Virus record (IMG/VR): IMGVR_UViG_3300047476_000319
Span: 1 to 33,029 of that record
DNA from: a virus
Direction: 5' to 3' (one strand)
DNA: 33,029 nucleotides
The notes under the pieces were generated by a model. The model was not told the DNA's origin and ran no database searches. It worked only from the letters and a program-made list of their open reading frames with translations. Positions 7,584 to 31,139 of this stretch are shown piece after piece (the stretch's first letter is position 1; every line of letters begins with the position of its first letter). The translations under genes were made by a program, and so were the position numbers.

Positions 7584-9662
7584 ATGGCAATTAAACCCTT
7601 AAACTCAGTCGGTGGCTTCTCAGTAGGTGAAGTCCCGGCAAACGTCATATTAGCTAACGGCGACATAACGACCGGTAATGCTACGGCTACGGGTAATATA
7701 ACAGCAAATTATTACTTTGGTAATGGCGCATACTTGACTGGCATTGATGCTACAAGTATTCAAAATGGCAACAGTAATGTAAAAGTATATGCGAATGCTA
7801 ACGTAGAAATATCAGCATATGGTAATGCAAATATTGTAACTATAACAGGTACAGGCGCTAACGTAACTGGAACTTTCAACGTTACAGGAAACGCTACTTT
7901 ACCGGATATCATAGCTGCCAACTTAACATCTTCTACTAACGCAAATATTAATATCGAACCAGACGGCACCGGACTAGTGGTAATAGCAAACACAGCAGGT
8001 GGAGCAACAGCTATTGCTATGGGTGATCCTTCTCAGGGTAACTTAATAAGCAACGCTGTAACACTGTCTAATTCTTCATCTGTATCTAATGCGATTGCTC
8101 AGTTAAATGTAGTTTTAGGTAAACTTGTACCTCCTGCTCCACCTAACTTCCCGGCTAGCCAAACAATTTCAATACAAAGTTTGTCAACTTATAGAATGGC
8201 AGACTTTACACAAATAGATAACACACCGGGCGCAAACAAAAACGTTGCCGGTGGTACTACAGTAACAACCGTTAGAAGAACATCTACTTATACTACTGGT
8301 AACATAACAACAGCAGGCCCCGGTGATAGCGGTTTTATCGCATCACGTTTAAACGGAGTAGACGCAGGTAACGTAACATTGACCTCATCCTTAATAGGTA
8401 ACGGTACATACGATGACCTAGTTATATACAACAACTATGATTATAACAGCGCCAACGCAAACATTACCGCTGGCTTCTGGTCTGTCTTCTCTGCTCGTTC
8501 GTCAGGTACAGTAACACAAGGTTGGAACGAAGTATATATTTCTGACTCTGCGGCAGGCAACACGAATACTACTGTTTGGTATTATGATAGTAGCGCGCCG
8601 GGCACACCTCAGTTCTCGTCAGTGACAATAACGCCACCAAGCTCACCAACATACGAATATTCAAGTACAGTACCGCACTACACTAGTAGCAATGCTTTTG
8701 ATGTAACCTTCAACGTTAACCGTTTAAGTGGTGACATGTACCCAACTGCTGATACATTTATCACTGGCGCAGCCGGCGGAGCTTTTGGCTCCCCCGCTAG
8801 CGTAACATACTCATCAGCCGGTGTCACTACCCCATTGGCACAAAATTTATATGTTTCGGCCGGCAGTCAAGCAGTAGCAACTACAGCGACTGTCATCTCA
8901 GGATTTGGCTCTAGCGCAAGTGCTCCTAGCGTAAGCGCATTTAATAGCTACGCAACTGGCACCCAGGCACTAACTCCGAGTGGTACAGTTTTATATAAAA
9001 CAGGTACAGCAAGTTCTTCCACAAGAATAGAAGAAGCAAACGTATACATTGGATCTACTATTGGTTCTGGGTCAGGATTAGCATATCGTATCGTAAATCC
9101 AGGGTCAGGGAATACCCCAACATATACTGGATCTGAATCACAATTCAACAGTCAATCATCTACATTACAAACGTATGATGCTACTGTAGTCGGTAATGTG
9201 TTAAAGCACGATCAAACAAACTATTCAACTGGTTACTTACCGGCTGGACCTAATTTAAGCACAGGACGAAGCGGAACACAATACTTCACATTCAAATTCA
9301 TTAGAACATCAGTTTCTAAGTTCGATGTTAAGTGGTCTGGAAATATCGCTGGCATGTGGGTAGCACTTCCAGGAAGTGTAATAGATTCTACATCAGGTGC
9401 TAACGGATGGATTAATATGGCAACAGCATATGCTGGTGCTGGTGTACCTGGCTCAAACGTAGGTGCCGGAGGAAACGGATCAGATGGATGTGCGCTTGGT
9501 GGCGTTGCTCCATTGAATTCAACACAAACAAATAAATCAGTTACCGCTACTTTTGGTACTGTAAGTAGCTCTAGTACAGTCACTAACGAAATTTATGTTA
9601 GAGTTGCTTTAACATCTGGACAGACAGTAACTGCCCTTTCATTACAAACTGCGAGTAACTAA
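7584..9662 (+). CDS. Fibre-like virion protein with large C-terminal domain (692 aa)
   Basis: Residues 1-30 (AIKPLNSVGGFSVGEVPANV) carry the same N-terminal anchor as the fibres at 4301 and 14302. A short repeat region follows to about residue 175, including a GNSNVKVYANANVEI module also seen in the 1545-aa protein. The rest, residues about 180-692, is a non-repetitive aromatic- and Gly/Ser-rich region that starts after a Pro-rich linker (LVPPAPPNFPASQ). It contains FSVFSAR-like and GWNEVYISDSA segments and ends in HDQTNYSTGYLPAGPNLSTG and a GGNGSDGCALGG loop. This large domain looks like a conserved marine-phage virion domain, perhaps a tip or receptor-binding module, though I cannot assign a named family. 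It is preceded by its own late promoter and followed 2 nt later by the 1545-aa gene. Confidence 0.8.
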   Translation: MAIKPLNSVGGFSVGEVPANVILANGDITTGNATATGNITANYYFGNGAYLTGIDATSIQNGNSNVKVYANANVEISAYGNANIVTITGTGANVTGTFNVTGNATLPDIIAANLTSSTNANINIEPDGTGLVVIANTAGGATAIAMGDPSQGNLISNAVTLSNSSSVSNAIAQLNVVLGKLVPPAPPNFPASQTISIQSLSTYRMADFTQIDNTPGANKNVAGGTTVTTVRRTSTYTTGNITTAGPGDSGFIASRLNGVDAGNVTLTSSLIGNGTYDDLVIYNNYDYNSANANITAGFWSVFSARSSGTVTQGWNEVYISDSAAGNTNTTVWYYDSSAPGTPQFSSVTITPPSSPTYEYSSTVPHYTSSNAFDVTFNVNRLSGDMYPTADTFITGAAGGAFGSPASVTYSSAGVTTPLAQNLYVSAGSQAVATTATVISGFGSSASAPSVSAFNSYATGTQALTPSGTVLYKTGTASSSTRIEEANVYIGSTIGSGSGLAYRIVNPGSGNTPTYTGSESQFNSQSSTLQTYDATVVGNVLKHDQTNYSTGYLPAGPNLSTGRSGTQYFTFKFIRTSVSKFDVKWSGNIAGMWVALPGSVIDSTSGANGWINMATAYAGAGVPGSNVGAGGNGSDGCALGGVAPLNSTQTNKSVTATFGTVSSSSTVTNEIYVRVALTSGQTVTALSLQTASN

Positions 9663-9664
9663 TT

Positions 9665-12600
9665 ATGGCCGTATCACAATCACAAATCGTTGACTTACTA
9701 TATAAGCAGGCATTCGGTGTTACAAAGACCGATACTGCTACTAATAAGAGTCCTAGTAACGAATCAATTCCTAGCCCAGCGCTGAATCGAGGAGATACTT
9801 TATGGACAGAAGCTGACCAAATACCCGGTACAGCGGCAGCTACAGCAGGTATTGTTCAAGCATATACCGGAGCGAACGCAGTACAATGTACAGCGGACAA
9901 TACTACAGTTCCGATAGGTGGTATATATCCTACATGGAAAACAAACTTAACATATTGGATACCTAGCGAATTTGGTTCAACATATAACGTTCAAGTTTTC
10001 ATCGATAACTCAGGAGCAGCCGACCCGACCAGTACAGGTACACAAATTTTCGCTGATGGATCAGGTGGTACAGGACAGTACTATTATGATTATCAGTCAG
10101 GTGTATTGAACTTTATTGGTGAGACGATACCTGCTGGATTAACTTCTGGTAAAGTTCTATATGTAGTTGGATACAGATATATCGGTAAAGTGGGTGTAAA
10201 CGATCTACCTGACGATACGACTATTGGTAACTTGAGTGTAAACGACACTACGATTGCGTCTATCAATACAAATGCTAATATTGAATTAAGCCCTAACGGT
10301 ACTGGTGTAGTTAACTCTACTGCTAACGTTGTAGCTCCTTACTTTATCGGTAACGTTGAAGGTAATATCAGTGGTAACGTAGTTGCTCCTGGTTCGAATA
10401 CTGAGATATTGTTTAACGATGGCGGAGTTATCGGAGCAAACACACTGTTCACTTTTGACAAAGCGACCGGCGAGCTAATACTAACTGGTAATGCTCAGTT
10501 TAATAATGCTAATTTAGGTAATTTAGGAACAGCTAACTATATTGACGTTACTAATCTAGCTAACATCGGTAACGTTACAATAACATATGAATTAAGCGGT
10601 AACTACGCTAACTTTACAAACAACGTTGTAACTAACAACACAACTATTAATTTAGAACTTGCGGGTAATACTGCGAACTTCAGCGGTAATGTCATACTAC
10701 CAAATTTACAAGTCAACTTAGAACTAGTCGGCAACACTGCTAATTTCAGTGGTAATGTTGTAGTTCCTAACTTAACTGTCAACTTAGAACTTGCGGGTAA
10801 TACAGCTAACTTCAGTGGTAATATCAAAACACTGAATGCCAACTTAGGTAATCTTGCTGAGGCAAACTACGTTAACGTTTCTTCTACATTGAATGTAACA
10901 GATACTGCTAACGTTGGTAATGCTGTTGTCAACAACTTGACACAATATCAATTAGTTTTCCCAGATAATACTAATAAGTTAGTCGGAAGCTCAGACTTGT
11001 ACTGGGACGTTGCGAGTTCAGCACTGTGGACAACTGGTATCTATTCAAATGGATTGATTAGTACTACATCTAATGTTGACGCAAATAACGCAAACATCAC
11101 TGCGAATCTAACATCCGGCAATGCTAATTTAGGTAACTTAGCTACGGCTAATTACATAAACGTTGCTAATGACTTAAACGTAACCGGTAACATAACTGGC
11201 GCAAATCTAATCGGGTCATTAGCTAATGGTAATAGTAACGTAAAAGTATATGGAAACGCAAACGTAGAAGTAACAGTATCTGGAAATAGCAACGTTGCTA
11301 CATTCGCAAGTACTGGTTTATATGTAGTTGGTGAGATTAACACTACTGCTGGCAACATGTTATCTAACGGTAACATTAGTGCTAACGGATTTTTGAATGG
11401 TGCTAATGCTAACATTACTGGTCAAGCAGAAATTGGTAGCGTTCTTACGGCTAACATAACAGCTCCAGTTGATAGTTTAACACTATCAGCGGCTGGTTCA
11501 GATCAAAACATATATCTAGTGCCTACTGGTTTAGGTACTGTAGATTTAGGATTACACAGAATCACTCAACTCGGTGATCCTACACAACCACATGACGCCG
11601 CGACAAAAGAATATGTTGATGCTATGGCAGGTGAAGGATTGGACATTCACACTCCTGTTAGAGTAGAAACTCCCGACACAGCCGGAAGTCTAAACGCAAC
11701 ATATGCTCAAGGTGGTACAACACAAACCACTACTGATATCAGTGGTGGAAAGACAATTACATTCAGCGCAAACCACGGTTTGTCTGTTAACGACGGTATT
11801 GTTTGGGATAATTCATTCAATGGAATCGTTGGTGGCGAAGCATATTGGGTTGAAACAGTACCAGCATTGAATCAGATTACAGTTCGAAATGGTTACTATG
11901 GTGCTGAAGTTACAACGCTTACAAACGGTACAGGGCTAACACAAGCATCACGTGCTAACCCAGGTGTCGGTGCTACACTTACTAACGCAGGCGCAAACGC
12001 AGCCTTGACAATCGATGGTATCGCACTAGCAAACACTAATCGTGTGTTGATATACAACCAAACGAATAGTGCTGAAAACGGTATATATGTTGTTACTGAT
12101 GTTGGTAACAGCACGGCTGCATGGGTATTAACACGTTCAAGTGATTTTGACAAATATATACCTGATTCTAGCGCAGGTATGAGCAAAGGATCATATGTAT
12201 TTGTAACCGCAGGTGCGACTGGAGCCGGTGAATCATATGTAATGACTTCACCAATCGGCGAAGTAATTATTGGTACAGATGCTCTAACATTTACTCAATT
12301 CAGTGCGGCAGGATCATATACCGCAGGTAACGGCATTGCTATAACTGGTACGACTATCAGCGCAAACACAGACGGTGTTACTACTGATGTAGTTGGTGGA
12401 AATATTGTTGTTAAATCAAGTGCTAACCTAACTACACCTAACGTAGGTGACGCAACGTTCAGTAGCTTGTCTTGGAACAATTTGAGTAATGGTAACGTTA
12501 CTGCTAACAATCTAAGCACTAGTAATATTGCTAACATTGGTCTTGATTTAACAGTCGGTGGTATCGCACAAGTTAACGGTAACATCAACAGTAACGCAAA

Positions 12601-19615: not shown

Positions 19616-22333
19616 ATGGCATTAACGACAATACAACCTTATAATATTAACACAGTAGCTACATTCAGTTTCACGGATGTGGCTGCTACCGACGTTTCTG
19701 CCACCGGTAATGTTGAAGCTACAGGTAATGTTTCAGGTGATTATTTTATCGGCAACGGTTCTAGCTTAACACATTTGAACGGAGCCAACGTAACAGGTGA
19801 AGTAGATTATGCGGCTACTGCTAACAGTGTAGCCGGATCTAATGTTTCAGGTGAAGTAGATTATGCCGCAGTTGCTAACAGTGTAGCAGTAGCAAATGTA
19901 TCAGGTATCGGTAACATAGCTACTATAAATTTAGATGGCAACGCAGGTAATATATTATATGGCAATGGTGTATTTTCTTCTGCCCCAAATGTAGAGAACG
20001 CCAATACAGCTAATTATGCTAGTGTCGCTAATTCTATTACTGGCTCAAATGTTTCTGGAGAAGTATCTTTTGCTAATACCGCTAATAGTGTAGCCGGCGC
20101 TAATGTATCTGGGGCAGTTGCTTATGCGACTACTGCTAACTCAGTAGCAGGCGCCAATGTAAGCGGAGCAGTTGGGTTAGCCACATACGCAACAACAGCT
20201 AACTCAGTCGCGGGAGCTAATGTAAGTGGTCAAGTTAACTTTGCAGCAACAGCAAACAGTGTAGCAGGAGCTAATGTAAGTGGTCAAGTATCGTATGCCG
20301 CAGTAGCTAATAGTGTATCAGTTGCTAATGTATCAGGTATCGGCAACATCGCTGTACTAAATTTAGATGGTAATTCAGGTAATATACTATACGGTAACGG
20401 TTCTTTTGCTACAGCACCAAACGCAGAATATTCAAATATAGCAAATACTGCCGGTACAGTTACAACTAATGCTCAGCCTAACATCACTAGTGTAGGCACA
20501 TTAACTATTTTAACATCTACAGGTAACATCACTGGCGGCAATCTAGTAACTGCCGGATCAGCCAATGTGGGCAGTGGTATCAGTGTCAGTGGTGGCGGCG
20601 CAAGTATTATAGGTGCTGTTGGTATTACTGGTGATATTAATGTTACTGGTAACTTTAACGTATCAGGTAATCTAAATTATCAAAATGTAACTGATTTAGT
20701 AGTTGGAGATCCATTGATATATCTTGCTGCCAACGGTGTAGGGGATACAGACGATATAGGTATTGTTGGTAACTACAACGACGGAGCATATAGACATACC
20801 GGACTAGCGAGAGATCATAGTGATGATATTTGGAAATTCTTTACTGACTTAGCGCCTGAACCAACTACCGTGATTGATTGGGCTAACGCTAGTTACCCCA
20901 CAGTTAAAGTGGGCAATTTACTATCTGCTAATTTAACAGGTACTGGTTGGGCAAATATAACAGGTAACGTCACTGCTGGAAATGCTAATTTAGGTAATGC
21001 AGTAACTGCTAATTACTTTGTCGGTAGCGGTGCTAACTTGTCAAGCATTGCCGGAGCAAACGTCACTGGTGCTGTTAGTTATGCGACTACTGCTAATAGT
21101 GTAGCAGGAGCCAATGTATCAGGGGCCGTATCATACGCAACAACAGCAAACAGTGTAGCCGGTGCTAACGTATCGGGGGCAGTAGGATTAGCTACATATG
21201 CTACTACTGCTAACTCAGTAGCCGGTGCTAACGTATCAGGAGCTGTTAGTTATGCGACTACAGCTAACTCAGTAGCCGGTGCTAACGTATCAGGAGCTGT
21301 TAGTTACGCGACTACAGCTAACTCAGTAGCCGGTGCTAACGTAAGTGGTACTGTTGGTAGTGCGACTACAGCAGGTACTGTAACAACTGCAGCACAACCA
21401 AACATAACAAGCACAGGTACATTGTCTAGTGTTAACTCGTCAGGCAACGTAACAGCACCTAACGTAGTAGCAAACACGGGCGCATTCTATGGTTCTGGTG
21501 CTGGATTATCAAGCATACCAGCCGGTAACTTAACCGGTACAATTGATAATGCTAGAGTTAACGGTCAAACATATACAATAAATATCACTGGATCTGCTGG
21601 AACAGCAAGTACAGTAACAACTGCGGCTCAACCTAACATCACTAGTGTTGGTACACTATCTAGTGTTTCTGTTTCTGGAACATCAACGCTACCTCAGATT
21701 TTGGTTAACAGAAGTTCAGGTGCCGGTACTGGTATATCTTGGTATTCTAGTAGTTATTCGGCCTGGACTGATTATATGTCATCCGCAGGAGCAACAGGTT
21801 GTGGTCCTTTTGGTAATATTACAGCACCTAGCGGCAACTTAGTCACTAACTGGGGCCTAAGAAGTTTTATCGAAGATGCTTCAGGTTATGGATGGACATG
21901 GGAATCTGGTTCGGCGCAACAAACAACTCCTACGATTAAAGCAGAAATTCGTTCAAGTGACGGGTCATTCAGAAACACAGGTAATATCTATTGTGTAGGT
22001 GACGTTATCACTAACTACTCTGATGTCAATTTGAAAGATATCATCGGTCCTATTGAAAACGCAGTAGAAAAAGTATGTGCTATTGAAACTTTCTACTATC
22101 GTCCTAATCAAATAGCAAAAGACTTAGGTGTAGCTGATGAACTTCAAGTTGGTGTCAGCGCACAATCTGTCAAACGAGTTGCTGAAGAAACTACTAGACC
22201 CAGCCCAATTAATGATAAGTACTTAACGGTTATGTATGAAAGATTGGTTCCATACTTGATAGAATCAATCAAAGAACATGAAAAAACAATACAAGACCTA
22301 AAAGAACAAATCAATAGTTTGAAGGGCAAATAA
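19616..22333 (+). CDS. Tail fibre with C-terminal S74-type intramolecular chaperone (905 aa)
   Basis: The N-terminus (ALTTIQPYNINTVATFSF) differs from the KPLN anchor. GANVSG/ATTANSVA repeats cover about residues 56-232 and 479-582. Between them lie a GNAGNILYGNGVFSSAPN-type spacer repeated twice and a VVGDPLIYLAANGVGDT ... HTGLARDHSDD module (356-435). Three AQPNITS-type repeats follow. Residues about 696-800 form a globular aromatic region (SWYSSSYSAWTDYMSSAG, WGLRSFIEDASG), probably the tip. From 802 comes a canonical S74 start, SDVNLKDIIGPIENAVEKV, continuing to VGVSAQSV and a final coiled coil (LIESIKEHEKTIQDLKEQI). The SD..LK arrangement suggests the chaperone cuts itself off before Ser802. 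The stop overlaps the next gene (TAATG). Confidence 0.88.
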   Translation: MALTTIQPYNINTVATFSFTDVAATDVSATGNVEATGNVSGDYFIGNGSSLTHLNGANVTGEVDYAATANSVAGSNVSGEVDYAAVANSVAVANVSGIGNIATINLDGNAGNILYGNGVFSSAPNVENANTANYASVANSITGSNVSGEVSFANTANSVAGANVSGAVAYATTANSVAGANVSGAVGLATYATTANSVAGANVSGQVNFAATANSVAGANVSGQVSYAAVANSVSVANVSGIGNIAVLNLDGNSGNILYGNGSFATAPNAEYSNIANTAGTVTTNAQPNITSVGTLTILTSTGNITGGNLVTAGSANVGSGISVSGGGASIIGAVGITGDINVTGNFNVSGNLNYQNVTDLVVGDPLIYLAANGVGDTDDIGIVGNYNDGAYRHTGLARDHSDDIWKFFTDLAPEPTTVIDWANASYPTVKVGNLLSANLTGTGWANITGNVTAGNANLGNAVTANYFVGSGANLSSIAGANVTGAVSYATTANSVAGANVSGAVSYATTANSVAGANVSGAVGLATYATTANSVAGANVSGAVSYATTANSVAGANVSGAVSYATTANSVAGANVSGTVGSATTAGTVTTAAQPNITSTGTLSSVNSSGNVTAPNVVANTGAFYGSGAGLSSIPAGNLTGTIDNARVNGQTYTINITGSAGTASTVTTAAQPNITSVGTLSSVSVSGTSTLPQILVNRSSGAGTGISWYSSSYSAWTDYMSSAGATGCGPFGNITAPSGNLVTNWGLRSFIEDASGYGWTWESGSAQQTTPTIKAEIRSSDGSFRNTGNIYCVGDVITNYSDVNLKDIIGPIENAVEKVCAIETFYYRPNQIAKDLGVADELQVGVSAQSVKRVAEETTRPSPINDKYLTVMYERLVPYLIESIKEHEKTIQDLKEQINSLKGK
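21211..21343 (+). repeat. Near-perfect 54-bp tandem repeat in the 905-aa fibre gene
   Basis: Units at 21211-21264 and 21265-21318 differ at one position (tat versus tac), and a 25-bp partial third copy follows. The unit encodes NSVAGANVSGAVSYATTA in rotated phase. Neighbouring units encode the same peptide with different codons, so this pair is a recent expansion. Confidence 0.88.
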
Positions 22334-23466
22334 TGGGATTCTATGTAGGTAATAGCGGCAACGCAAATGTAAACGCAACTTCTAGTGGATTTAAGGCACC
22401 GGTATTCACCTCATCGACATTGCCCGCTAGTCCAGTCGAAGGACAAGTAATTTATAATTCTACTACCCAGTACATGCAGGTGTACGCTAACGGTAGTTGG
22501 AATAACTTGGGGGTATTTCCCGGAACAGCAGGTTATCCATACAGACAAATAATTGTAAAGAGTTTTGTTATGGGTGGATATCAAAATACTAGCCCATGGC
22601 GAAATGTAAACAAGATGGTACACAGTACAGATGTGTGTACTAACTTAGGCGATCTGTTAAGTTATGCAGGAGTATACACAAGTGGTGTTAATAACCTAAC
22701 CAGAGGTTTCTTGTGGAGTACAGACGGTTCATTCCCTGGAGCAAGCACAACTACAAGTGCAATTAATATGAACACCGAGACTACAGCCGGTACCAATGCT
22801 AATTGGAATACTAGAATTGCTAGAGATGACATGGGCACTGGATTCAAAGAAACTGAATTTGCTTATATCGTAGGTGGTGGATCAGCCGTATTTGATATTT
22901 TTAATCTTACAACCGAAACTATGTATTACGGAACACCTATGTACTTACCATTTGATACGGTGTTGTCTTATACTGCACAAGGTAGTGGTGATACAAGTGC
23001 TGTAAGCGATGAAAACGCATGTTGGTTTTGGGCTACAGGCCCATTGAACACAAAACTTTCGTTCAACACTCATACTTTTACAAGCAATGGATTAGTGGCT
23101 GCAGCTGGTGGATTGCGAGGTTCTTCTATTGGCGGAGCACACGGACAACAAAAGGGTATTAATAGTAAATGGGGTCGTGGTTATGCTGGTGGAAATGGTA
23201 GCTGGAACGGCGGCTATATATTAAATCGCATGGTGTTCTCGACAGAAACATCCACCACAATCAATAAGCCAATCGGTAATACCGGCGAAGAGAATTTTGA
23301 CATGGGACAAAACTGGCAGTATATGATGGGCTGTTATGATGGAGCACAAAACAACAGAGGTTGGAAGTTTACATATGCTACTGACTTGGGTGTCGAACTA
23401 GGTTCAGGAAGCGTAAGAACCGGCGTACCTGGCGGCAGTTCTGGTCATTGCGTTTGGAGCACATAA
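22333..23466 (+). CDS. Propeller-like fibre/adhesin protein, trio B member 1 (377 aa)
   Basis: First of three tandem paralogues. The N-terminus has a common phage fibre module, LPASPVEGQVIYNSTTQYM, followed by W. The body has recurring S-T-[DE] turns about every 45-60 residues (HSTDVCTNLGDL, NMNTETTAG, NLTTETMYYG, VFSTETSTTI) next to Gly-Gly strands, as in kelch-like beta-propellers. The C-terminus is highly conserved: GEENFDMGQNWQYMMG, DGAQNNRGWKFTYATD, ELGSGSVRTGVPGGSSGHC. It is more diverged from members 2 and 3 than they are from each other. A fibre-tip or carbohydrate-binding role is inferred. TAATG overlaps occur at both ends. Confidence 0.75.
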   Translation: MGFYVGNSGNANVNATSSGFKAPVFTSSTLPASPVEGQVIYNSTTQYMQVYANGSWNNLGVFPGTAGYPYRQIIVKSFVMGGYQNTSPWRNVNKMVHSTDVCTNLGDLLSYAGVYTSGVNNLTRGFLWSTDGSFPGASTTTSAINMNTETTAGTNANWNTRIARDDMGTGFKETEFAYIVGGGSAVFDIFNLTTETMYYGTPMYLPFDTVLSYTAQGSGDTSAVSDENACWFWATGPLNTKLSFNTHTFTSNGLVAAAGGLRGSSIGGAHGQQKGINSKWGRGYAGGNGSWNGGYILNRMVFSTETSTTINKPIGNTGEENFDMGQNWQYMMGCYDGAQNNRGWKFTYATDLGVELGSGSVRTGVPGGSSGHCVWST

Positions 23467-24536
23467 TGGCATTTTCTATAGGTAGCAACAACATAATGAC
23501 AGTAAACGGCTTGGTAATGCCAATATATACCACAGCCACTAGACCAGCGAATCCTGTGATCGGACAAGTCATATACAATTCTACTACAGCCTACATGGAA
23601 AGATTCGATGAAGGAAATGTATGGAGACCTGTTATATATTCCGGGGCTCTACTGTACAGACAGATTATTACAACTAGCTATGTTGCTGGCGGATACAAAG
23701 ACAGCAGTCCTTGGAAAAACGTTAATAGAATGACACATAGTACTGATGTTATGGTTAACCTAGGTGATCTGTTAGCGACGGCAGCTAACTATACTTCGGG
23801 AGCATGTAGCCTAACAACAGCTTTTATGTGGTGTGCCTCACCTGACGCATTTCCTACAACACCAACTAATACTACAGTAGCATTTGCCATGACTACTGAA
23901 ACAACATTAGGTACAGCAACTCGGTGGAATTTAGGTAACGCAAGAAATGACTGCGGAACTATATTTAAAGAAACAGAATATGCTTATGTCACCGGCGGCG
24001 GTCCAGCTGCAGTGGACGTATTTAATCTTAGTACAGAAACTGTTACAGCAGGTGGCGTATCCGGACAAACGGGTGACGCCTCTTATCAGAATGGTGTTAG
24101 CGCATTCAGCGGGGAATTCGTAGGATATTGGTGGGGTAGTAGTGGTCAAAAACTTACGTTCAGTACAGGAACATCGTACACCGTCGCAGATGCGTCTGGG
24201 GTAAGTACTAATGGACAGCAAAAAGGTATCTCAAGTAAAGTAGGTAGAGGATATATGGGTAATGAAGGTACGTACAATGGCGGGTACAATTTACGTAGAT
24301 ATGTAATCTCAACCGATTCGTACACTACTGTTGCCAAACCTGTAGGTAATTCAGGAGAAGAAAACTTTGACATGGGTCAAAATTGGCAGTATATGATGGG
24401 TATGTACGATGGAGCACAAAACAACAGAGGTTGGAAGTTTACCTACGCAACTGATAGTGGTTATGAATTAGGCTCTGGTAGTGTACGTACGGGTGTCGCA
24501 GGTGGCAGTTCTGGTAACTGTTTCTGGAGAAGTTAA
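23466..24536 (+). CDS. Propeller-like fibre/adhesin protein, trio B member 2 (356 aa)
   Basis: The start at 23466 is chosen over an in-frame ATG at 23448. It gives MAFSIGSNN, matching the MAF/MGF starts of both siblings, it overlaps the previous stop by one base (TAATG), and a GGAG ribosome-binding site precedes it. Landmarks are TRPANPVIGQVIYNSTTAYM, GGYKDSSPWKNVNRMTHSTD, RNDCGTIFKETEYAYVTGGG, WWGSSGQKLTFSTGTSYT and GEENFDMGQNWQYMMGMYDG. Recurring STD/STE turns suggest several blades of a beta-propeller. It is closest to member 3, sharing DNA tracts of more than 30 identical bases. It is followed directly by member 3 with no gap. Confidence 0.78.
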   Translation: MAFSIGSNNIMTVNGLVMPIYTTATRPANPVIGQVIYNSTTAYMERFDEGNVWRPVIYSGALLYRQIITTSYVAGGYKDSSPWKNVNRMTHSTDVMVNLGDLLATAANYTSGACSLTTAFMWCASPDAFPTTPTNTTVAFAMTTETTLGTATRWNLGNARNDCGTIFKETEYAYVTGGGPAAVDVFNLSTETVTAGGVSGQTGDASYQNGVSAFSGEFVGYWWGSSGQKLTFSTGTSYTVADASGVSTNGQQKGISSKVGRGYMGNEGTYNGGYNLRRYVISTDSYTTVAKPVGNSGEENFDMGQNWQYMMGMYDGAQNNRGWKFTYATDSGYELGSGSVRTGVAGGSSGNCFWRS

Positions 24537-25607
24537 ATGGCATTCAAGCTAAATTCTAATATTGTATTATCAAACGATGGCATAAACATACCGGTGTTTG
24601 CCGGCAATGCTAGACCAGCAAACCCTGTTACAGGACAGGTTATCTACAATTCATCTACTAACATCATGGAGATATATGATGGTGGTTTGTGGAAGGATGT
24701 GACACAGAACGCTAGTGGAACTGCATTTTTATATAGACAACTTATATCAACTAGTTATGTTGCAGGTGGGTATCAAAGTGCTAGCCCATGGAAAAACGTA
24801 AATCGAATGAGCCAAAGTACCGATATTATGACTAATTTAGGTGACTTGTTATCGATAGCAGCCAACTATACATCAGGCGCGAATAGCTTAACTACTGCTT
24901 ATATGTGGTGTGCATCTCCAACATGGGACGGAACAGCAGTTGCTACAGTAGCATATAATATGGCTACTGAAACAAGCGCTGGCTCATTATCATCATGGAA
25001 TATGCCAGTTGCACGTAACGATTGTGGTACAATATTCAAAGAAACACAATATGCTTATGTAACAGGGGGCAGTAGCGCAGATGTTAGTGTTTGGACATTC
25101 TCAACCGAGAGTTTTTCATCTGGTGCTGTATCTGGACAAACAGGTGATTCCTCTTATCAGTATGGTGTTGCGTCAATCAGTGACGAGACCTCAGGTTACT
25201 GGTGGGGTAGTAGTGGTCAAAAACTTACGTTTGGTACAGGTACTACATACACAATAGCTAATGCTGCCAACGTTAACGTTAATGGACAGCAAAAAGGTAT
25301 CTCAAGTAAATTAGGCTTTGGATACTTTGGTAATGAAGGTGGATATAACGGCGGATATAATCTTAGAAAGTACATAACTAGTACTGATACATATACTACT
25401 ATTCCTAAACCTATAGGTAATTCAGGAGAAGAGAATTTTGACATGGGACAATATTGGCAGTATATGATGGGTATGTATGACGGAGCACAAAACAACAGAG
25501 GTTGGAAGTTTAGTTACACAGCCGATACAGGATATGAGCTTGGTTCGGGAAGTACAAGAACAGGGGTTCCGGGAGGAAGTTCTGGGCACTGTGCGTGGAA
25601 GGCATAA
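24537..25607 (+). CDS. Propeller-like fibre/adhesin protein, trio B member 3 (356 aa)
   Basis: The ATG follows the previous stop with no gap, after a GGAGAAG ribosome-binding site. It shares ARPANPVTGQVIYNSSTNIM, GGYQSASPWKNVNRMSQSTD, RNDCGTIFKETQYAYVTGGS, WWGSSGQKLTFGTGTTYT and the NNRGWKF C-terminal block with member 2. The most variable stretches lie between the conserved turns, where propeller top loops would be expected. Cysteines are few and mostly conserved (WCAS, NDCG, GHC). No signal peptide is visible, as expected for a virion part assembled in the cytoplasm. The binding target is unknown. Confidence 0.78.
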   Translation: MAFKLNSNIVLSNDGINIPVFAGNARPANPVTGQVIYNSSTNIMEIYDGGLWKDVTQNASGTAFLYRQLISTSYVAGGYQSASPWKNVNRMSQSTDIMTNLGDLLSIAANYTSGANSLTTAYMWCASPTWDGTAVATVAYNMATETSAGSLSSWNMPVARNDCGTIFKETQYAYVTGGSSADVSVWTFSTESFSSGAVSGQTGDSSYQYGVASISDETSGYWWGSSGQKLTFGTGTTYTIANAANVNVNGQQKGISSKLGFGYFGNEGGYNGGYNLRKYITSTDTYTTIPKPIGNSGEENFDMGQYWQYMMGMYDGAQNNRGWKFSYTADTGYELGSGSTRTGVPGGSSGHCAWKA

Positions 25608-25632: not shown

Positions 25633-26397
25633 ATGAAAGATTTCACTACTGAAGTAAGCAACGAACACAGAGCATTAATTGAAAAATCAGCAGACCGTAA
25701 TTTGGTTATGCCTGAATTCAAAGTAAAAAACTTTGTGGGTAACGCACAAATTACTCCATACGCAAAGTTAAAACAGTATATAATTGAATTGAACGGCCGC
25801 GAAATGGCAGTTGAGAATATGATCTATGAATACAAAAAAATTCAATTAGAAATTCAATTAGAAAAAGAAAAAGCAGAATCCATCAGAGAATCTAGTCCTA
25901 TACAAGCCGCATTGCATGATCTGGAAATTTTTAAAATGGAAGGCGTACTAAAGCGCAGTGAACTTAGATTACGTGACTCAGTACAAGAACGTGATTTGTT
26001 TTTAAAAGTAATTGATGATTTTAACGCAAGCCCGGAAGGTACATTACCCGATGGTACTAAATTAATAGATGCGTTTGATAACCCCGAACTGTGCGAGAAG
26101 TTGGAAAAAGATTATTGGACTCTACGACTAGCTAAACAAACTGCTATGGATATGATAGCATACGGCAGAGCAGGCGTGGGTAACATGGACGCTGTAGTTA
26201 TGTTAGAACCCGACCAACAGTTAGAAGTAATGCGTTTGGCGTGTGATTTCTTTGTAAGAAATGAAATGAGAACAAACAATTTACTAAGTCAGGTTAACCA
26301 AGGTATACAGCAAAATATGTTGCCTAACTCAGCGTTAGTTCAACAGTTAATGTTTAAGGCAGACGATAATGTTCCTAGTGTTCAAAACAGTAAATGA
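25633..26397 (+). CDS. Hypothetical helical phage protein (254 aa)
   Basis: I do not recognise a named family. The protein starts with a short extended region (NLVMPEFKVKNFVGNAQITP), then a long charged helix at about residues 45-125 (KIQLEIQLEKEKAE and onward) that probably forms a coiled coil. Two or three more helices follow (residues about 150-230), with a Gln/Asn-rich C-terminus. There are no membrane segments. A good ribosome-binding site (ggaga) sits 5 nt before the ATG. It lies between the trio B fibre genes and a protein with a fibre-assembly-like domain, so a role in fibre or tail assembly is possible but unsupported by any motif. The next gene probably overlaps its end. Confidence 0.65.
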   Translation: MKDFTTEVSNEHRALIEKSADRNLVMPEFKVKNFVGNAQITPYAKLKQYIIELNGREMAVENMIYEYKKIQLEIQLEKEKAESIRESSPIQAALHDLEIFKMEGVLKRSELRLRDSVQERDLFLKVIDDFNASPEGTLPDGTKLIDAFDNPELCEKLEKDYWTLRLAKQTAMDMIAYGRAGVGNMDAVVMLEPDQQLEVMRLACDFFVRNEMRTNNLLSQVNQGIQQNMLPNSALVQQLMFKADDNVPSVQNSK

Positions 26398-27097
26398 ACA
26401 ACAAATGGGTCTGGTCAAACGTGTTGGCCAGTACCTAGATTATGTTGTGGGATGGTTGGATGATAGTGTTAAAGATATCGTTCCAATCAAACACCTTAAC
26501 GCAACAATCATCGATGATGAAAAAATAGCTATGGCGTGGAAATTTGCCGGAAACTATTCTGGATACATCAGTGTAAGATCAAAGACACTAGCCAATGACC
26601 AATTAGATATCGTCAGTAGCACTGAAGCAGATGGTACAAAAGTTAAATACTATCTAACTGAAGAAGATATAGCAAGCGCCGCGGTCTTTATGAAGATTGT
26701 GTTGCGAAAGATGCTAGATGAAGTTTACGACCGAAGACTTGAACATATAAACGCTGAAGTATCTAGGCTAGAAACTGCGTCTTGGGCTACTCAGTTATCA
26801 GAAGCATGGTCGTATAAAATAGATCATACTGCTAGTGTACCATTGTTGTCATCATTAGCAGAAGCTAGGGGTATATCCAAAGATGATATGGCTGACAAAA
26901 TAACTAAAGCACACGAAGCATATGAAGCGAACATTGCTAAATTATTAGCTAAGAAACAATTAGTCGAAGCTGAAATAAAACAATGTAGTACAGTCAAAGA
27001 ATTAAATGTAGTAATACATAGACGCTTTGGGTACAACATGCCAGCAAAACAACAAGCAGATATGAATTGGGTAGAAAGTTCTGTATACGACCTATAA
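26369..27097 (+). CDS. Putative tail-fibre assembly-like protein (242 aa)
   Basis: Two starts are possible. ATG 26369 gives a 28-29 nt overlap with the previous gene and has a weak AAGG upstream. ATG 26405 gives MGLVKRVGQYLDYVVGW, lies 7 nt after the previous stop, and has no clear ribosome-binding site. The N-terminal half is mixed alpha/beta. The C-terminal half, from about residue 130, reads RLETASWATQLSEAWSYKID, then TASVPLLSSLAEARGISKDD, then a helix. That order of a W..Q..EA...Y helix and a TP.L..LA..RG turn resembles the C-terminal region of DUF4376-type phage tail-fibre assembly proteins. The similarity is by eye. A chaperone or adaptor for the many upstream fibres would fit the context. 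Confidence 0.6.
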   Translation: MFLVFKTVNEQQMGLVKRVGQYLDYVVGWLDDSVKDIVPIKHLNATIIDDEKIAMAWKFAGNYSGYISVRSKTLANDQLDIVSSTEADGTKVKYYLTEEDIASAAVFMKIVLRKMLDEVYDRRLEHINAEVSRLETASWATQLSEAWSYKIDHTASVPLLSSLAEARGISKDDMADKITKAHEAYEANIAKLLAKKQLVEAEIKQCSTVKELNVVIHRRFGYNMPAKQQADMNWVESSVYDL

Positions 27098-27116: not shown

Positions 27117-28730
27117 ATGTTCTCAATTCCTATAAATCCAAAACTAGATCCAAAACAATTTCAAGAATTTTATGATTTCTTAAAGGATCATAAAGAATTT
27201 ATATACGACTTGTACTTTACTAGTCGTATGCCACCCTTCATTCAAGATGCTATGGGTGATGTTTTTGATATCAATAATACTGCCCCTATCGAGGCAGCAC
27301 TACACATTCAACACACATTGGGTATTCCAGTATCTGCTACGTTCAATAATACATTAGTTCGACCCAGTCAAGAAAACTTAGACTTGTTTATTTCTAATTT
27401 TAGAATGCTCTACGCGGCTGGTGTACGTTCTGCTACAATACCGCACACTCATTGGGTAATGACTGGTCAGCTTCAAAAAGAATTCCCTGAATTGTTTATT
27501 AAGAATACTATTCTTTGGGACACCAACAAAGCTAATGAAGTTGCTAAACTAGCAGAAGCCGGATTTAAGTACGTAAACTTAGACCGTGACTTGATGCGTG
27601 ACCGTGATGAATTGATTAAGATACGCAAAGTTGCTGACAAGTATGGCATCAAAATTAGCTTATTAGCAAACGAAGGGTGTGCTGGCGGATGCCCGGTCAT
27701 GAAAGAGCATTTTCAATTTAACAATACTCGCGGCCAAGATGGTGCTCAGTACTTTAATGATACTATTAGCCGTGTGAGTTGTCCTAAGTGGGATTATGAA
27801 GATCCTAGTAGTATGTTGAAGACTGCCAACTTCCCACCTTGGAAAGAAGATTGGGACGAGTTACTACAATATGCTGACGTAATCAAGATGCATGGTCGTG
27901 AATCTATCGATAGATTATACGAGACAATGAATATCATTAAACGCTACAAAAACAACGAAGAATACTTGTTTGATACGTTTGAAGAATACATCCAAGATAC
28001 TAATCTAGCCGGCAAACCAATCAATGCTTGGCGAGACAAGATAAAGAATTGTAAGTTTGATTGCTGGGATTGCGACTATTGCGATAAGATATATCAAGCA
28101 AAGTCAAAAGAAGTAGCGCATCCAAAAATAATTACAGTAACAGAAGAATTAGTAAACTCAGCTAATATTGACCTAGATATTAAAGTAGAAGGATTAACGA
28201 GCCCTAGAGTTCAGAAATTATTGTACGCACTCGCAAAACGCAGTAGCAACTATCTAGAAGTAGGCAGTGCAATGGGGGCTACAGCAACTGCGGTTGCCCA
28301 AGCGGGAATAAACATGCACTGTGTTGACAGTTGGACAACTGACATTCAACCCATGAGTGAAGAATTTGAATTACCCGATAATACTAAAAAGGTCTTTCTG
28401 GATAATTTAAAAGGATACAATGTCAACGTTCACGACACTGATTTGTTTAATGTAGACAAGTCGAAAATTAAAGATATTGATTTGTTTTTCTACGATGGTC
28501 CTCATGACATAGAGACTACAATGAAAGCAGTCAAATACTATAGTGAGTGTTTTGCGGATACTGCCATATTGATATTTGATGATGCTAATTGGATGGGCGT
28601 AGTTCAAGGAGCAGAGATGGGTATAGGATTAGCTAAACTGAAGAAACTATATTCTAAGATGATGCTCAACAGCCCTGAGAATAAGACACAATGGTGGAAC
28701 GGCCTGTATATTGTAGTGGTACAAAAATGA
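27117..28730 (+). CDS. U32-like Fe-S barrel protein fused to a class I methyltransferase (537 aa)
   Basis: Two domains are visible. Residues 1-330 alternate strands and helices like the TIM-type barrel of the U32 family (IPVSATFN, VRSATIPH, YVNLDRDLMRD). They include the family-like NEGCAGGCP (C188, C192), SCPKW (C222) and VIKMHGR near 255-261, comparable to the KIEGR motif of U32 proteins, and end in a Cys cluster C312, C316, C319, C322. U32 enzymes bind a 4Fe-4S cluster and hydroxylate RNA bases or quinone rings. Residues about 335-537 form a Rossmann methyltransferase: YLEVGSAMGATATAV (SAM loop, 379-393), CVDSW (402-406), DLFFYDGPHD (455-464), LIFDDANW (485-492). The stop overlaps the next start (ATGA). 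Substrate unknown; hydroxylation followed by methylation is an inference. The strain of evidence is motif-level only. Confidence 0.75.
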   Translation: MFSIPINPKLDPKQFQEFYDFLKDHKEFIYDLYFTSRMPPFIQDAMGDVFDINNTAPIEAALHIQHTLGIPVSATFNNTLVRPSQENLDLFISNFRMLYAAGVRSATIPHTHWVMTGQLQKEFPELFIKNTILWDTNKANEVAKLAEAGFKYVNLDRDLMRDRDELIKIRKVADKYGIKISLLANEGCAGGCPVMKEHFQFNNTRGQDGAQYFNDTISRVSCPKWDYEDPSSMLKTANFPPWKEDWDELLQYADVIKMHGRESIDRLYETMNIIKRYKNNEEYLFDTFEEYIQDTNLAGKPINAWRDKIKNCKFDCWDCDYCDKIYQAKSKEVAHPKIITVTEELVNSANIDLDIKVEGLTSPRVQKLLYALAKRSSNYLEVGSAMGATATAVAQAGINMHCVDSWTTDIQPMSEEFELPDNTKKVFLDNLKGYNVNVHDTDLFNVDKSKIKDIDLFFYDGPHDIETTMKAVKYYSECFADTAILIFDDANWMGVVQGAEMGIGLAKLKKLYSKMMLNSPENKTQWWNGLYIVVVQK

Positions 28731-29338
28731 CAAAGCGATTTCCTGTATTAAGTGCCGATATATTTTATAGAAACGTCGGCACACCAGAACAACGACAAGA
28801 TTTAATTGACCAGGCATTAGCTGAACAAGCAAGAAATTCCCAGACAGTCGCATGGACTAATCGAGGGTGCTGGAGAAGTTATTTTCAGTACAATAACATT
28901 GAATGGCTGAAGAAGGAACTCAATGAAATGGTCGCGGAAGCCGGCAATTACTATCAAGAAATAGATCCTATCTATAAGAGAAAAACAAAAAGTTTTGTAG
29001 GTAGTGAATTAAAATATTGGACTAACATCAACAAGCCTGGCGGTCGCAATGCCATGCACGAACACAAATTATGGCATTACGTTGCTTGCTATTATTTACA
29101 AGCAGAAGACACAGGGGACATTGTGTACTTCAACCCTATTAATTTAACTGAAGGATGTAATCCATATGCCCCCTTCGTAAGTCCAATGTCGTTCTCGCCT
29201 AAAGATGGGGATTTATTGATGTGGCCCGCGTGGCTTCCCCATGAAGTAGAAATGAATATGTCTGATAAATCTAGAATAAACATTGCCTTCAACATCAGAT
29301 TTCAAGCACCAGTGAGTTTAGAAGATGCGGAAGATTGA
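28727..29338 (+). CDS. 2OG-Fe(II) oxygenase-like protein (203 aa)
   Basis: The start at 28727 (ATGA overlap with the methyltransferase fusion) is preferred to the upstream in-frame ATG at 28691, because MTKRFPVLSADIFYRN is the natural start of this family. The C-terminal half has a double-stranded beta-helix layout: NAMHEHKLWHYVACYYLQ with candidate iron ligands H111/H113, GDIVYFNP, GDLLMWPAWLPHEVEMN with H172, and SRINIAFNIRF with R183 as the likely 2-oxoglutarate anchor. This resembles the TIGR02466-type putative 2OG-Fe(II) oxygenases that are frequent in marine T4-like phages. Such enzymes couple 2-oxoglutarate decarboxylation to hydroxylation. The substrate is unknown. It overlaps the next gene by 14 nt. 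Confidence 0.8.
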   Translation: MTKRFPVLSADIFYRNVGTPEQRQDLIDQALAEQARNSQTVAWTNRGCWRSYFQYNNIEWLKKELNEMVAEAGNYYQEIDPIYKRKTKSFVGSELKYWTNINKPGGRNAMHEHKLWHYVACYYLQAEDTGDIVYFNPINLTEGCNPYAPFVSPMSFSPKDGDLLMWPAWLPHEVEMNMSDKSRINIAFNIRFQAPVSLEDAED

Positions 29339-30083
29339 ATTTTATAGTGATGTGTACGGGTTAGTAGACACTGTACCTATATTGAAGCCAGTAGATTGCT
29401 TACCTAAATGGGTATCTACAGTACGAGCAGACTACAAACAAAGTAACAAAGAGAAACCACATTTGTATAGATGCCCAGGTATATTCGATTTGTTTAACTA
29501 TGGTTATATAGTATCAGCATGGCATGACATAACATTGAATACTGACGGTGAACAATATGGTTGGGAAATACCTAGCAAAGAGCTATTGAACTATAAATTG
29601 AACGGTGATTTGGCTTCAGCGCATAGTCACAAAGACGTTGCTAAGTATTTACCTAGACCTAAATGGACACACCCCAGTGTATTGAAACTAAACACGCCGT
29701 GGCATGTTATAGCGCCTAAAGGAGTTAAATTGTTAATAACTAGTCTACCATACCCTGACTCATATGAGTTTGAAGCATTGACTGGGATTTTAGATCCAAG
29801 TATCAGTACAGAAATCAATATTCAATTGAATTGGAATACGCCAATTGGCACAGGCAGAATCACAGCAGGCACACCGCTAGCACACATTATTCCATTGAGT
29901 GAAGAAACGTTTGAATTAGTAGTTAGAGATAAAAACGCTAACGATGAAATATGGTCTAAAAAACGTAATTTTGTCAATAGCATGAGTTACATATTAAATC
30001 GTTCTAGGATCAAGAAAATGTATGACAATCATTTTCATAAAGAAGAACCTAAGAAATGCCCCTTTCACTTTTGGAGAAAATAA
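29325..30083 (+). CDS. Hypothetical protein, DUF6065-like (252 aa)
   Basis: The protein carries a YRCPGIFDLFNYGYIVSAWH block (residues 48-67), followed by an extended beta-rich region (GVKLLITSLPYPDS, EINIQLNW, GRITAGTPLAHIIPLSEE) and a basic helical C-terminus with KKCPFHFW at the end. The CPG..D.....GYIV..W.D pattern and the beta-barrel middle recall DUF6065 proteins found in phages and bacteria. I am moderately sure of the resemblance and know of no assigned function. It overlaps the oxygenase gene by 14 nt and abuts the membrane protein gene with no gap, so it belongs to the same translational unit. The His-rich NHFHKEE plus the terminal Cys could bind metal. Confidence 0.65.
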   Translation: MRKIEFYSDVYGLVDTVPILKPVDCLPKWVSTVRADYKQSNKEKPHLYRCPGIFDLFNYGYIVSAWHDITLNTDGEQYGWEIPSKELLNYKLNGDLASAHSHKDVAKYLPRPKWTHPSVLKLNTPWHVIAPKGVKLLITSLPYPDSYEFEALTGILDPSISTEINIQLNWNTPIGTGRITAGTPLAHIIPLSEETFELVVRDKNANDEIWSKKRNFVNSMSYILNRSRIKKMYDNHFHKEEPKKCPFHFWRK

Positions 30084-31139
30084 ATGAGTTTAGAGTTATT
30101 AAAGGGATTAGAATATCTTTGGTTGATATTCTTTATTATGATTGTTTCTGGTATAGCAAAAGAACAGAATCTTTTCATGCCGGTTTATTCCTACATTAAA
30201 TCAGCATTTAAAAGCAATCGTGTAGTATTGTTTTTAATTAGTGCTGTCAGTGGTGTACTTCCCATTGAGGGTCGAGTTACTGTATCAGCAGGAGTATTAG
30301 ATACAATTACCAAAAAAGATTGTTCATGTGGTCATGACCATGGTCGTCAGCGAATGGGTATAGTAGATTATCTAGCAACGCATCATTACTATATGTGGTC
30401 TCCGTTAGAGAAAACGGTTATATTGCCAATGGCTATGTTTGGCATAGGGTATACCGCTTGGCTCGGTATAGTTTGGCCTATATTAGCGGTTAGTTTGTTG
30501 TTTATTTTCTATTACATATTCACTCAAGTCAAAGAAGATGATATAGAAATTGACTTTGTTCCATTCAAAATAAGCTCCGTAATACGTAATGTTCTACCTT
30601 TCTTTGTCGCAATAGCTGCCTATATCTATGTGGGCGGAAACACAAATGTTTTCCCTATATTTGGATGTTTAGCATTATGGTACATGTTCTTGACACAGAC
30701 ATGGGATATTAAGAAATTACTAAGCTATATCAATTGGGAAGTCATACTAACTGTTGCGGCTGTGATAGTTTTAGGTAACTATTTAAAGTCGCATAGCGCA
30801 TATTTTACTGATATGATTAAATCTGCTGGAGTAGACCCTGCGACATTTTATGGTATGACTATCATATCATTGTTTGGATTTGCCGCTAGCTTTTTGATGG
30901 GTTCTAGTGGTAAATTTGTTGCTCTTGCTGTGCTAATGTCAACGGTCTTTGGTCATCAATACTTTTTATGGTTTTTTGCGGTAGACTTTGTGGGGTATTT
31001 AATAAGCCCTACACACAAGTGTGTTATGGTCGGAAATAGATATTTCGGCACTTCTATCAAGCAATACTTCACGGTTTTAGGTATTTGGGGACTGTTATTA
31101 CTAGGATCTGCTGGAACGTTCACATTCATAGGGGCATAA
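30084..31139 (+). CDS. DUF401-like multi-pass membrane transporter (351 aa)
   Basis: Roughly nine or ten hydrophobic segments are visible, for example residues 8-25, 47-63, 111-149 (two), 168-185, 190-206, 218-233, 253-305 (two or three) and 328-350. SGVLPIEGRVTVSAGVLD (56-73) and LISPTHKCVMVGNRYFG (306-322) resemble the paired re-entrant or helix-break motifs of DUF401 proteins, which belong to the citrate/ion transporter superfamily. A loop after segment 2 contains C80, C82, H84 and H86 (DCSCGHDHGRQR), a potential metal site. The gene starts at the base after the previous stop with a GGAGA ribosome-binding site. A full-length inner-membrane transporter is unusual inside a phage fibre locus. 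It could move an anion, metal or small organic substrate during infection; none can be named. Confidence 0.75.
   Translation: MSLELLKGLEYLWLIFFIMIVSGIAKEQNLFMPVYSYIKSAFKSNRVVLFLISAVSGVLPIEGRVTVSAGVLDTITKKDCSCGHDHGRQRMGIVDYLATHHYYMWSPLEKTVILPMAMFGIGYTAWLGIVWPILAVSLLFIFYYIFTQVKEDDIEIDFVPFKISSVIRNVLPFFVAIAAYIYVGGNTNVFPIFGCLALWYMFLTQTWDIKKLLSYINWEVILTVAAVIVLGNYLKSHSAYFTDMIKSAGVDPATFYGMTIISLFGFAASFLMGSSGKFVALAVLMSTVFGHQYFLWFFAVDFVGYLISPTHKCVMVGNRYFGTSIKQYFTVLGIWGLLLLGSAGTFTFIGA

Follow-up and report, generated by a model that had tools for sequence, protein, structure and literature searches.

What would a marine phage modify with an iron-sulfur (Fe-S) barrel fused to a methyltransferase? The question is raised by a single open frame of 537 amino acids in the IMG/VR virus record IMGVR_UViG_3300047476_000319, of which positions 1 to 33,029 were analysed (this whole stretch of 33,029 nucleotides is called the window below). 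The original prediction had described a U32-like barrel joined to an S-adenosylmethionine (SAM)-binding half, and had suggested that the protein hydroxylates and then methylates an RNA or another target. The frame was recovered at 27117-28730 (+) with every motif quoted there. As set out below, both domain assignments hold, whereas the gene context points away from RNA, and we somewhat favor the view that the fusion is a bifunctional enzyme modifying a phage tail protein, by hydroxylation and then O-methylation of a side chain of a tail propeller. The parts of the gene are as follows.

27117..28730, plus strand: fusion gene, 537 amino acids, U32-superfamily barrel and Methyltransf_24 methyltransferase (T4-like gene cluster (GC) 354 / phrog_1458)
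27117..28106, plus strand: barrel half, residues 1-330, U32-type TIM barrel (AlphaFold pLDDT 88; 5d88; archaeal profile link)
27678..27692, plus strand: C188-x3-C192 (LLANEGCAGGCP), invariant cysteines 1 and 2
27780..27782, plus strand: C222 (in SCPKW), invariant cysteine 3
27885..27899, plus strand: K257-M-H-G-R261, counterpart of the U32 KIEGR motif after strand 8
28050..28082, plus strand: C312-x3-C316-x2-C319-x2-C322, second cysteine cluster, invariant in 33 barrels
28179..28727, plus strand: methyltransferase half, residues 355-537, Rossmann fold, similar to catechol O-methyltransferase (COMT) (PF13578 above cut-off; Foldseek)
28254..28277, plus strand: SAM motif I, LEVGSAMG (E381, G383, G387)
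28485..28508, plus strand: FFYDGPHD with the invariant D460, a predicted metal ligand by analogy with COMT
28575..28592, plus strand: FDDANW with D488, D489 and N491, invariant and likewise predicted metal ligands by analogy with COMT

The identity of the N-terminal half as a divergent member of the U32 superfamily is well supported, although not by direct family matching: neither the window protein nor any of 35 homologues reached the gathering score of PF01136, a Pfam/NCBIfam search of the window protein gave no TrhP/RlhA equivalog and no recognised U32 C-terminal domain, and phmmer and profile searches with the fusion alone found no match among PDB sequences. Because the direct Pfam/NCBIfam search of the phage protein gave nothing, the homology was traced through archaeal intermediates. 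The barrel profile retrieves archaeal proteins of about 380 amino acids (E 4e-14), which in turn score 32-45 bits against PF01136, 10-22 bits above its cut-off of 22.4, and weakly match TrhP models. With hhalign, an initial comparison to four Escherichia coli U32 proteins gave little signal (E 0.0018, probability 15%) and has been superseded by deeper profiles, which give E 2.6e-16 between the phage barrel and the archaeal proteins, 2e-16 between the latter and U32, and 1.9e-5 between the barrel and U32 directly, with unrelated controls at 0.5-0.7. When the AlphaFold model (pLDDT 88, pTM 0.80) is compared with the PDB, no barrel ranks above the U32 protein 5d88, which stands second overall (TMt 0.64, rmsd 3.7 over 226 columns), and a joint profile searched against PDB sequences again returned 5d88 as best match (E 0.0016). 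The U32-type barrel of the original prediction is thus upheld, although the direct profile match proposed as a check failed for this half and succeeded for Methyltransf_24. A U32 search among the relatives of a Chloroflexota metagenome-assembled genome yielded no sequences.

Conserved positions agree with this assignment. With the hydroxylases TrhP, RlhA and UbiU/UbiV (PF01136) the phage barrel shares the TIM barrel itself, a cysteine after strand 6 and the K-x-x-G-R motif after strand 8, the U32 form K-[IL]-x-G-R being present as K257-M-H-G-R261. C188, C192, C222, C312, C316, C319 and C322 are invariant in the 33 barrels aligned, cellular ones included, and in the eight archaeal loci compared (L139-L146) all seven are kept together with H198, F213, K257 and R261, although these proteins are stand-alone, without a methyltransferase, and only about 20% identical to the phage barrel. 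Their arrangement departs from the usual U32 four-cysteine motif: most U32 proteins carry C-x6-C-x15-C-x3/4-C, from which UbiV also deviates (PMC6747719), while the phage barrel has C-x3-C-x29-C plus C-x3-C-x2-C-x2-C, the second cluster reading C-x4-C-x2-C-x2-C in the archaeal relatives. The barrel is therefore placed in a distinct seven-cysteine subfamily, and from the cysteine pattern one or two Fe-S clusters are predicted in it. It differs further from the known hydroxylases in its appended methyltransferase, in the missing U32 C-terminal domain and in its tail-protein context. Among the families compared, none fits the N-terminal half better. A radical SAM barrel was rejected, there being no PF04055 match in the window protein or its 35 homologues, and C312-x3-C316-x2-C319 sits after the barrel, not at its first loop as the CxxxCxxC of radical SAM enzymes does, and is not kept with this spacing in the archaeal relatives; PF05114 (MNIO/DUF692) is not among the matches of 35 members, and the plain xylose-isomerase-type barrel PF01261 appears only below cut-off (E 0.03-0.08).

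The C-terminal half is supported as a SAM methyltransferase of the COMT-like O-methyltransferase type. The window protein scores 32.2 bits against PF13578 (gathering cut-off 26.3), 33 of 35 homologues match the same family, and in Foldseek its Rossmann fold resembles that of COMT and of further O-methyltransferases. The SAM-binding residues have not been lost across homologues; instead G383, G387, D404, D460, D488, D489 and N491 are invariant in 35 fusions, distant cyanophages included. D460, D488/D489 and N491 are putative COMT-like metal ligands, an equivalence drawn from motifs and not from superposition. Family score, fold, SAM motif and, judging from motifs, the D-D-N positions are common to this half and the COMT-type enzymes, whereas an E-x4-WWNG motif near the C-terminus and the fusion to a barrel are its own.

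The same fusion, sought in other marine phages, proved to be widespread. It occurs in 123 GenBank phage records, all of cyanophages, with most of its length covered at about 40-46% identity, and across hundreds of marine and freshwater phage contigs; barrel relatives in IMG/VR number at least 554. Both halves are under strong purifying selection (dN 0.12-0.24, synonymous sites saturated). When the phage loci were grouped into 53 clusters at 85% barrel identity, 46 were fused and seven were not. In five of these seven the propeller genes are followed by two module genes, a radical-SAM gene, a barrel of 342-346 amino acids and a methyltransferase of about 220, with overlapping ends, and Pfam confirms both Radical_SAM and Methyltransf_24 in this split clade; a sixth cluster (L192) has split barrel and methyltransferase genes without the radical-SAM gene. 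The split state requires at least three changes on the tree, so fusion or fission has happened more than once without separating the two activities. A stand-alone phage barrel was also seen (L091:5114-7044); it follows a DUF6445 gene within a series of tail-like proteins related to one another, and its vicinity has no kelch propeller.

The late-region setting of the original prediction is borne out, the fusion gene standing at the end of a late cluster that encodes the head protease, the major head protein and tail-fibre proteins with endosialidase-type ends. The same order is found in cyanophage annotation as T4-like gene clusters 346-354, in which the fusion, GC 354, is labelled hypothetical. 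Around the fusion, three phrog_1417 genes and two module genes precede it, and an oxygenase, a DUF6065-like protein and a transporter follow.

22333..23466, plus strand: kelch beta-propeller tail protein 1 (phrog_1417, 'sericin 1-like'), candidate substrate (AlphaFold pLDDT 84; Keap1 kelch TMt 0.80)
23448..24536, plus strand: kelch propeller paralogue 2 (phrog_1417)
24537..25607, plus strand: kelch propeller paralogue 3 (phrog_1417)
25633..26397, plus strand: module protein phrog_1409 (GC 352 or 353)
26369..27097, plus strand: module protein phrog_1604 (GC 352 or 353)
28691..29338, plus strand: 2-oxoglutarate (2OG)-Fe(II) oxygenase (2OG-FeII_Oxy_5 / TIGR02466), overlapping the end of the fusion gene
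29325..30083, plus strand: DUF6065-like protein (phrog_7084), in 22 of 53 clusters
30084..31139, plus strand: DUF401-type membrane transporter, in 25 of 53 clusters

The linkage of the fusion to the propeller is near-obligate. A propeller gene lies upstream of the barrel in 50 of the 53 clusters and the two module proteins are found in 51. In the reverse direction, 99 loci were gathered with single propeller sequences as queries, and 70 contain the barrel, 29 end too early and none lacks it. The phrog_1409 protein occurs in 123 phage records with an organism breakdown identical to that of the fusion. The phrog_1417 protein, modelled as a kelch beta-propeller, matches cyanophage 'sericin 1-like' proteins; relatives of the three tandem paralogues at 22333-25607 have been deposited as 'sericin 1 precursor-like', while the model shows beta-propellers. 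Its conserved residues include Y83, Y115, Y330, Y335, Y348 and W89, which are possible modification targets judging from conservation.

Variable tailoring genes accompany this constant core. Of the 261 genes at positions -2 to +3 of the barrel, 75 are of tailoring types (2OG oxygenases, DUF6445, tryptophan halogenase, radical SAM, split methyltransferase and DUF6065-like), compared with 23 of 516 genes further away; these counts are not independent trials given the shared ancestry of the phage clusters. At L195 a tryptophan halogenase (E 6e-92) lies directly downstream of the barrel, and in the split clade the radical-SAM gene lies directly upstream. In Syn33 the gene after the fusion (L081:10695-11192) carries the label 'denV', which looks wrong: it matches no endonuclease model and instead weakly matches 2OG-FeII_Oxy_3. 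The membrane protein at 30084-31139, resembling DUF401 and citrate transporters, recurs beside the module. Literature searches found no report on DUF6445, none linking U32, radical SAM and ribosomally synthesised and post-translationally modified peptides (RiPPs), and, among the papers covered, none on such a phage tail modification.

Bacterial and archaeal relatives of the barrel are mostly found beside secretion systems or peptide-maturing radical-SAM genes. Stand-alone barrels occur in few Campylobacterota genomes, and the cellular contexts include a C39-ABC/HlyD/TolC export operon, DUF6445 with radical-SAM/SPASM genes, and tryptophan halogenase, SecA-like and M50/HlyD genes. Among the archaeal relatives, those of the L139-L142 type have a radical-SAM neighbor in common with some phage barrels, in their case a radical-SAM/SPASM gene of peptide-maturase type placed back to back with the barrel gene. 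Two further arrangements may be mentioned. At one locus (L124, genome G338) two long barrels of 539 and 553 amino acids, with a divergent extra N-terminal region, lie in tandem before a SapC gene; at another (L096:1713-2624) a barrel and a radical-SAM gene are adjoined by a protein of 303 amino acids whose C-terminal end bears a cysteine cluster and which may be a SPASM protein that has degenerated.

How these observations bear on function can be considered from the side of the chemistry. Metal-dependent O-methyltransferases cap hydroxyls, and characterised U32 enzymes mostly hydroxylate; for these two reasons the protein is read as one that hydroxylates and then methylates. The N-terminal Fe-S barrel would add a hydroxyl, probably on an aromatic or other side chain and without radical SAM chemistry, and the C-terminal half, as a metal-dependent methyltransferase, would methylate the new hydroxyl. 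As substrate, the kelch beta-propeller encoded just upstream is the likely choice, and the two small module proteins may serve as adaptors. Further modifications could come from the oxygenases, halogenases or radical-SAM enzymes encoded downstream, a set that varies from phage to phage. The barrel might instead perform other redox chemistry on the tail protein, such as cross-linking, epimerisation or dehydrogenation, with the methyltransferase acting on an existing side chain and no hydroxylation taking place. The seven cysteines, suggestive of two clusters, and a pattern unlike the C-x6-C-x15-C-x3/4-C of characterised U32 hydroxylases (PMC6747719) would suit such a reaction; the O-methyltransferase type of the partner and the usual activity of U32 enzymes argue by inference for hydroxylation, and we regard this alternative as unlikely.

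The nature of the target is weighed on other evidence. A tRNA or rRNA base could be hydroxylated and then O-methylated by what would amount to a one-protein TrhP-TrmR, retuning host translation, and among the Foldseek matches of the C-terminal half there are RNA methyltransferases; TrhP and RlhA both hydroxylate RNA, in each case needing prephenate, and TrmR methylates ho5U (PMC6599085). Against this stand the late structural location of the gene and its linkage to a single tail protein and to genes that tailor proteins or peptides. In addition, most stand-alone relatives adjoin secretion and peptide-maturation genes, and neither a U32 C-terminal domain nor an RNA-binding domain was recognised in the window protein. 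A protein side chain is favored over RNA because of this fixed linkage to the propeller and to tailoring enzymes, and the RNA target of the original prediction, which finds no support here, appears quite improbable. UbiU/UbiV act on quinone rings (PMC6747719), and with a halogenase, 2OG oxygenases and the DUF401 transporter nearby one could also imagine a free metabolite being turned into a hydroxylated, methylated and sometimes halogenated aromatic, to be directed against the host or carried on the virion. Yet the fixed partner is a structural protein and not a biosynthetic enzyme, no carrier protein or ligase was recognised adjoining the window gene, and the radical-SAM/SPASM neighbors point to peptides, so that small-molecule or cofactor synthesis seems very unlikely.

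Several points nevertheless weigh against modification of the propeller by hydroxylation and methylation. The function proposed for the fusion family is a prediction from sequence, models and gene context, and a gene neighborhood indicates association, not substrate. The targets of characterised U32 enzymes are RNA or quinones, and no precursor peptide was identified. A redox tailoring gene is missing close by in 15 of the 53 clusters, and shared ancestry inflates the p-values of the Fisher test on the tailoring counts. A convincing tryptophan halogenase is present in only one of the five barrel-bearing Campylobacterota genomes, and was accordingly dropped as a constant cellular partner. Finally, the context of one Campylobacterota barrel (genome G194, L095, reverse complement 8974-10050) fits no account based on protein modification: 13 bases before its start ends a csm5-like gene, the last of a type III CRISPR operon (gene names assigned by eye).

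Comparison with known systems shows which elements would be new. Bacillus TrhP1/TrhP2 with TrmR, and the TrhO(YceA)-TrmR fusions, follow the same logic of hydroxylation and then O-methylation, within one polypeptide in the fusions, but act on tRNA U34, unlike the tail setting here. TrhO is not a U32 protein, and TrmR belongs to a different methyltransferase family from the phage C-terminal half. Since TrhO(YceA)-TrmR gene fusions have been reported in Phytophthora and Phaeodactylum (PMC6599085), a hydroxylase and an O-methyltransferase in one polypeptide are not in themselves novel; the novelty would lie in the subfamily of U32 barrels, in a protein being the target and in a phage tail being the setting. 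A parallel in composition is offered by RiPP and peptide maturation sets, that of biphenomycin being one example. Such sets draw on radical-SAM/SPASM enzymes, MNIO, 2OG oxygenases and FAD halogenases and form, as here, a redox tailoring mix beside a ribosomal substrate. Hydroxylation of aromatic side chains by MNIO is known in RiPP maturation (PMC12707348); in the phage system the hydroxylase would be a U32 barrel and the substrate a folded virion protein. With somewhat less than even confidence, we suggest that in marine T4-like phages a folded tail propeller passes through a tailoring line like those of RiPPs: the seven-cysteine U32 subfamily hydroxylates a side chain, the methyltransferase caps it, and a receptor-facing surface is diversified by interchangeable enzymes of the radical-SAM, 2OG-Fe(II), DUF6445 and halogenase kinds.

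For experimental work, the propeller and the fusion offer a clear candidate pair of substrate and enzyme. In cyanophages, tryptophan halogenases and 2OG oxygenases are usually counted among the auxiliary metabolic genes; if the proposal is true, they would acquire a role in this line, which would explain why cyanophages carry them. U32 chemistry would then reach beyond RNA and quinones to proteins, and phages widespread in the ocean would be seen to tailor a propeller of their virions enzymatically, a new kind of chemistry for the virus particle.
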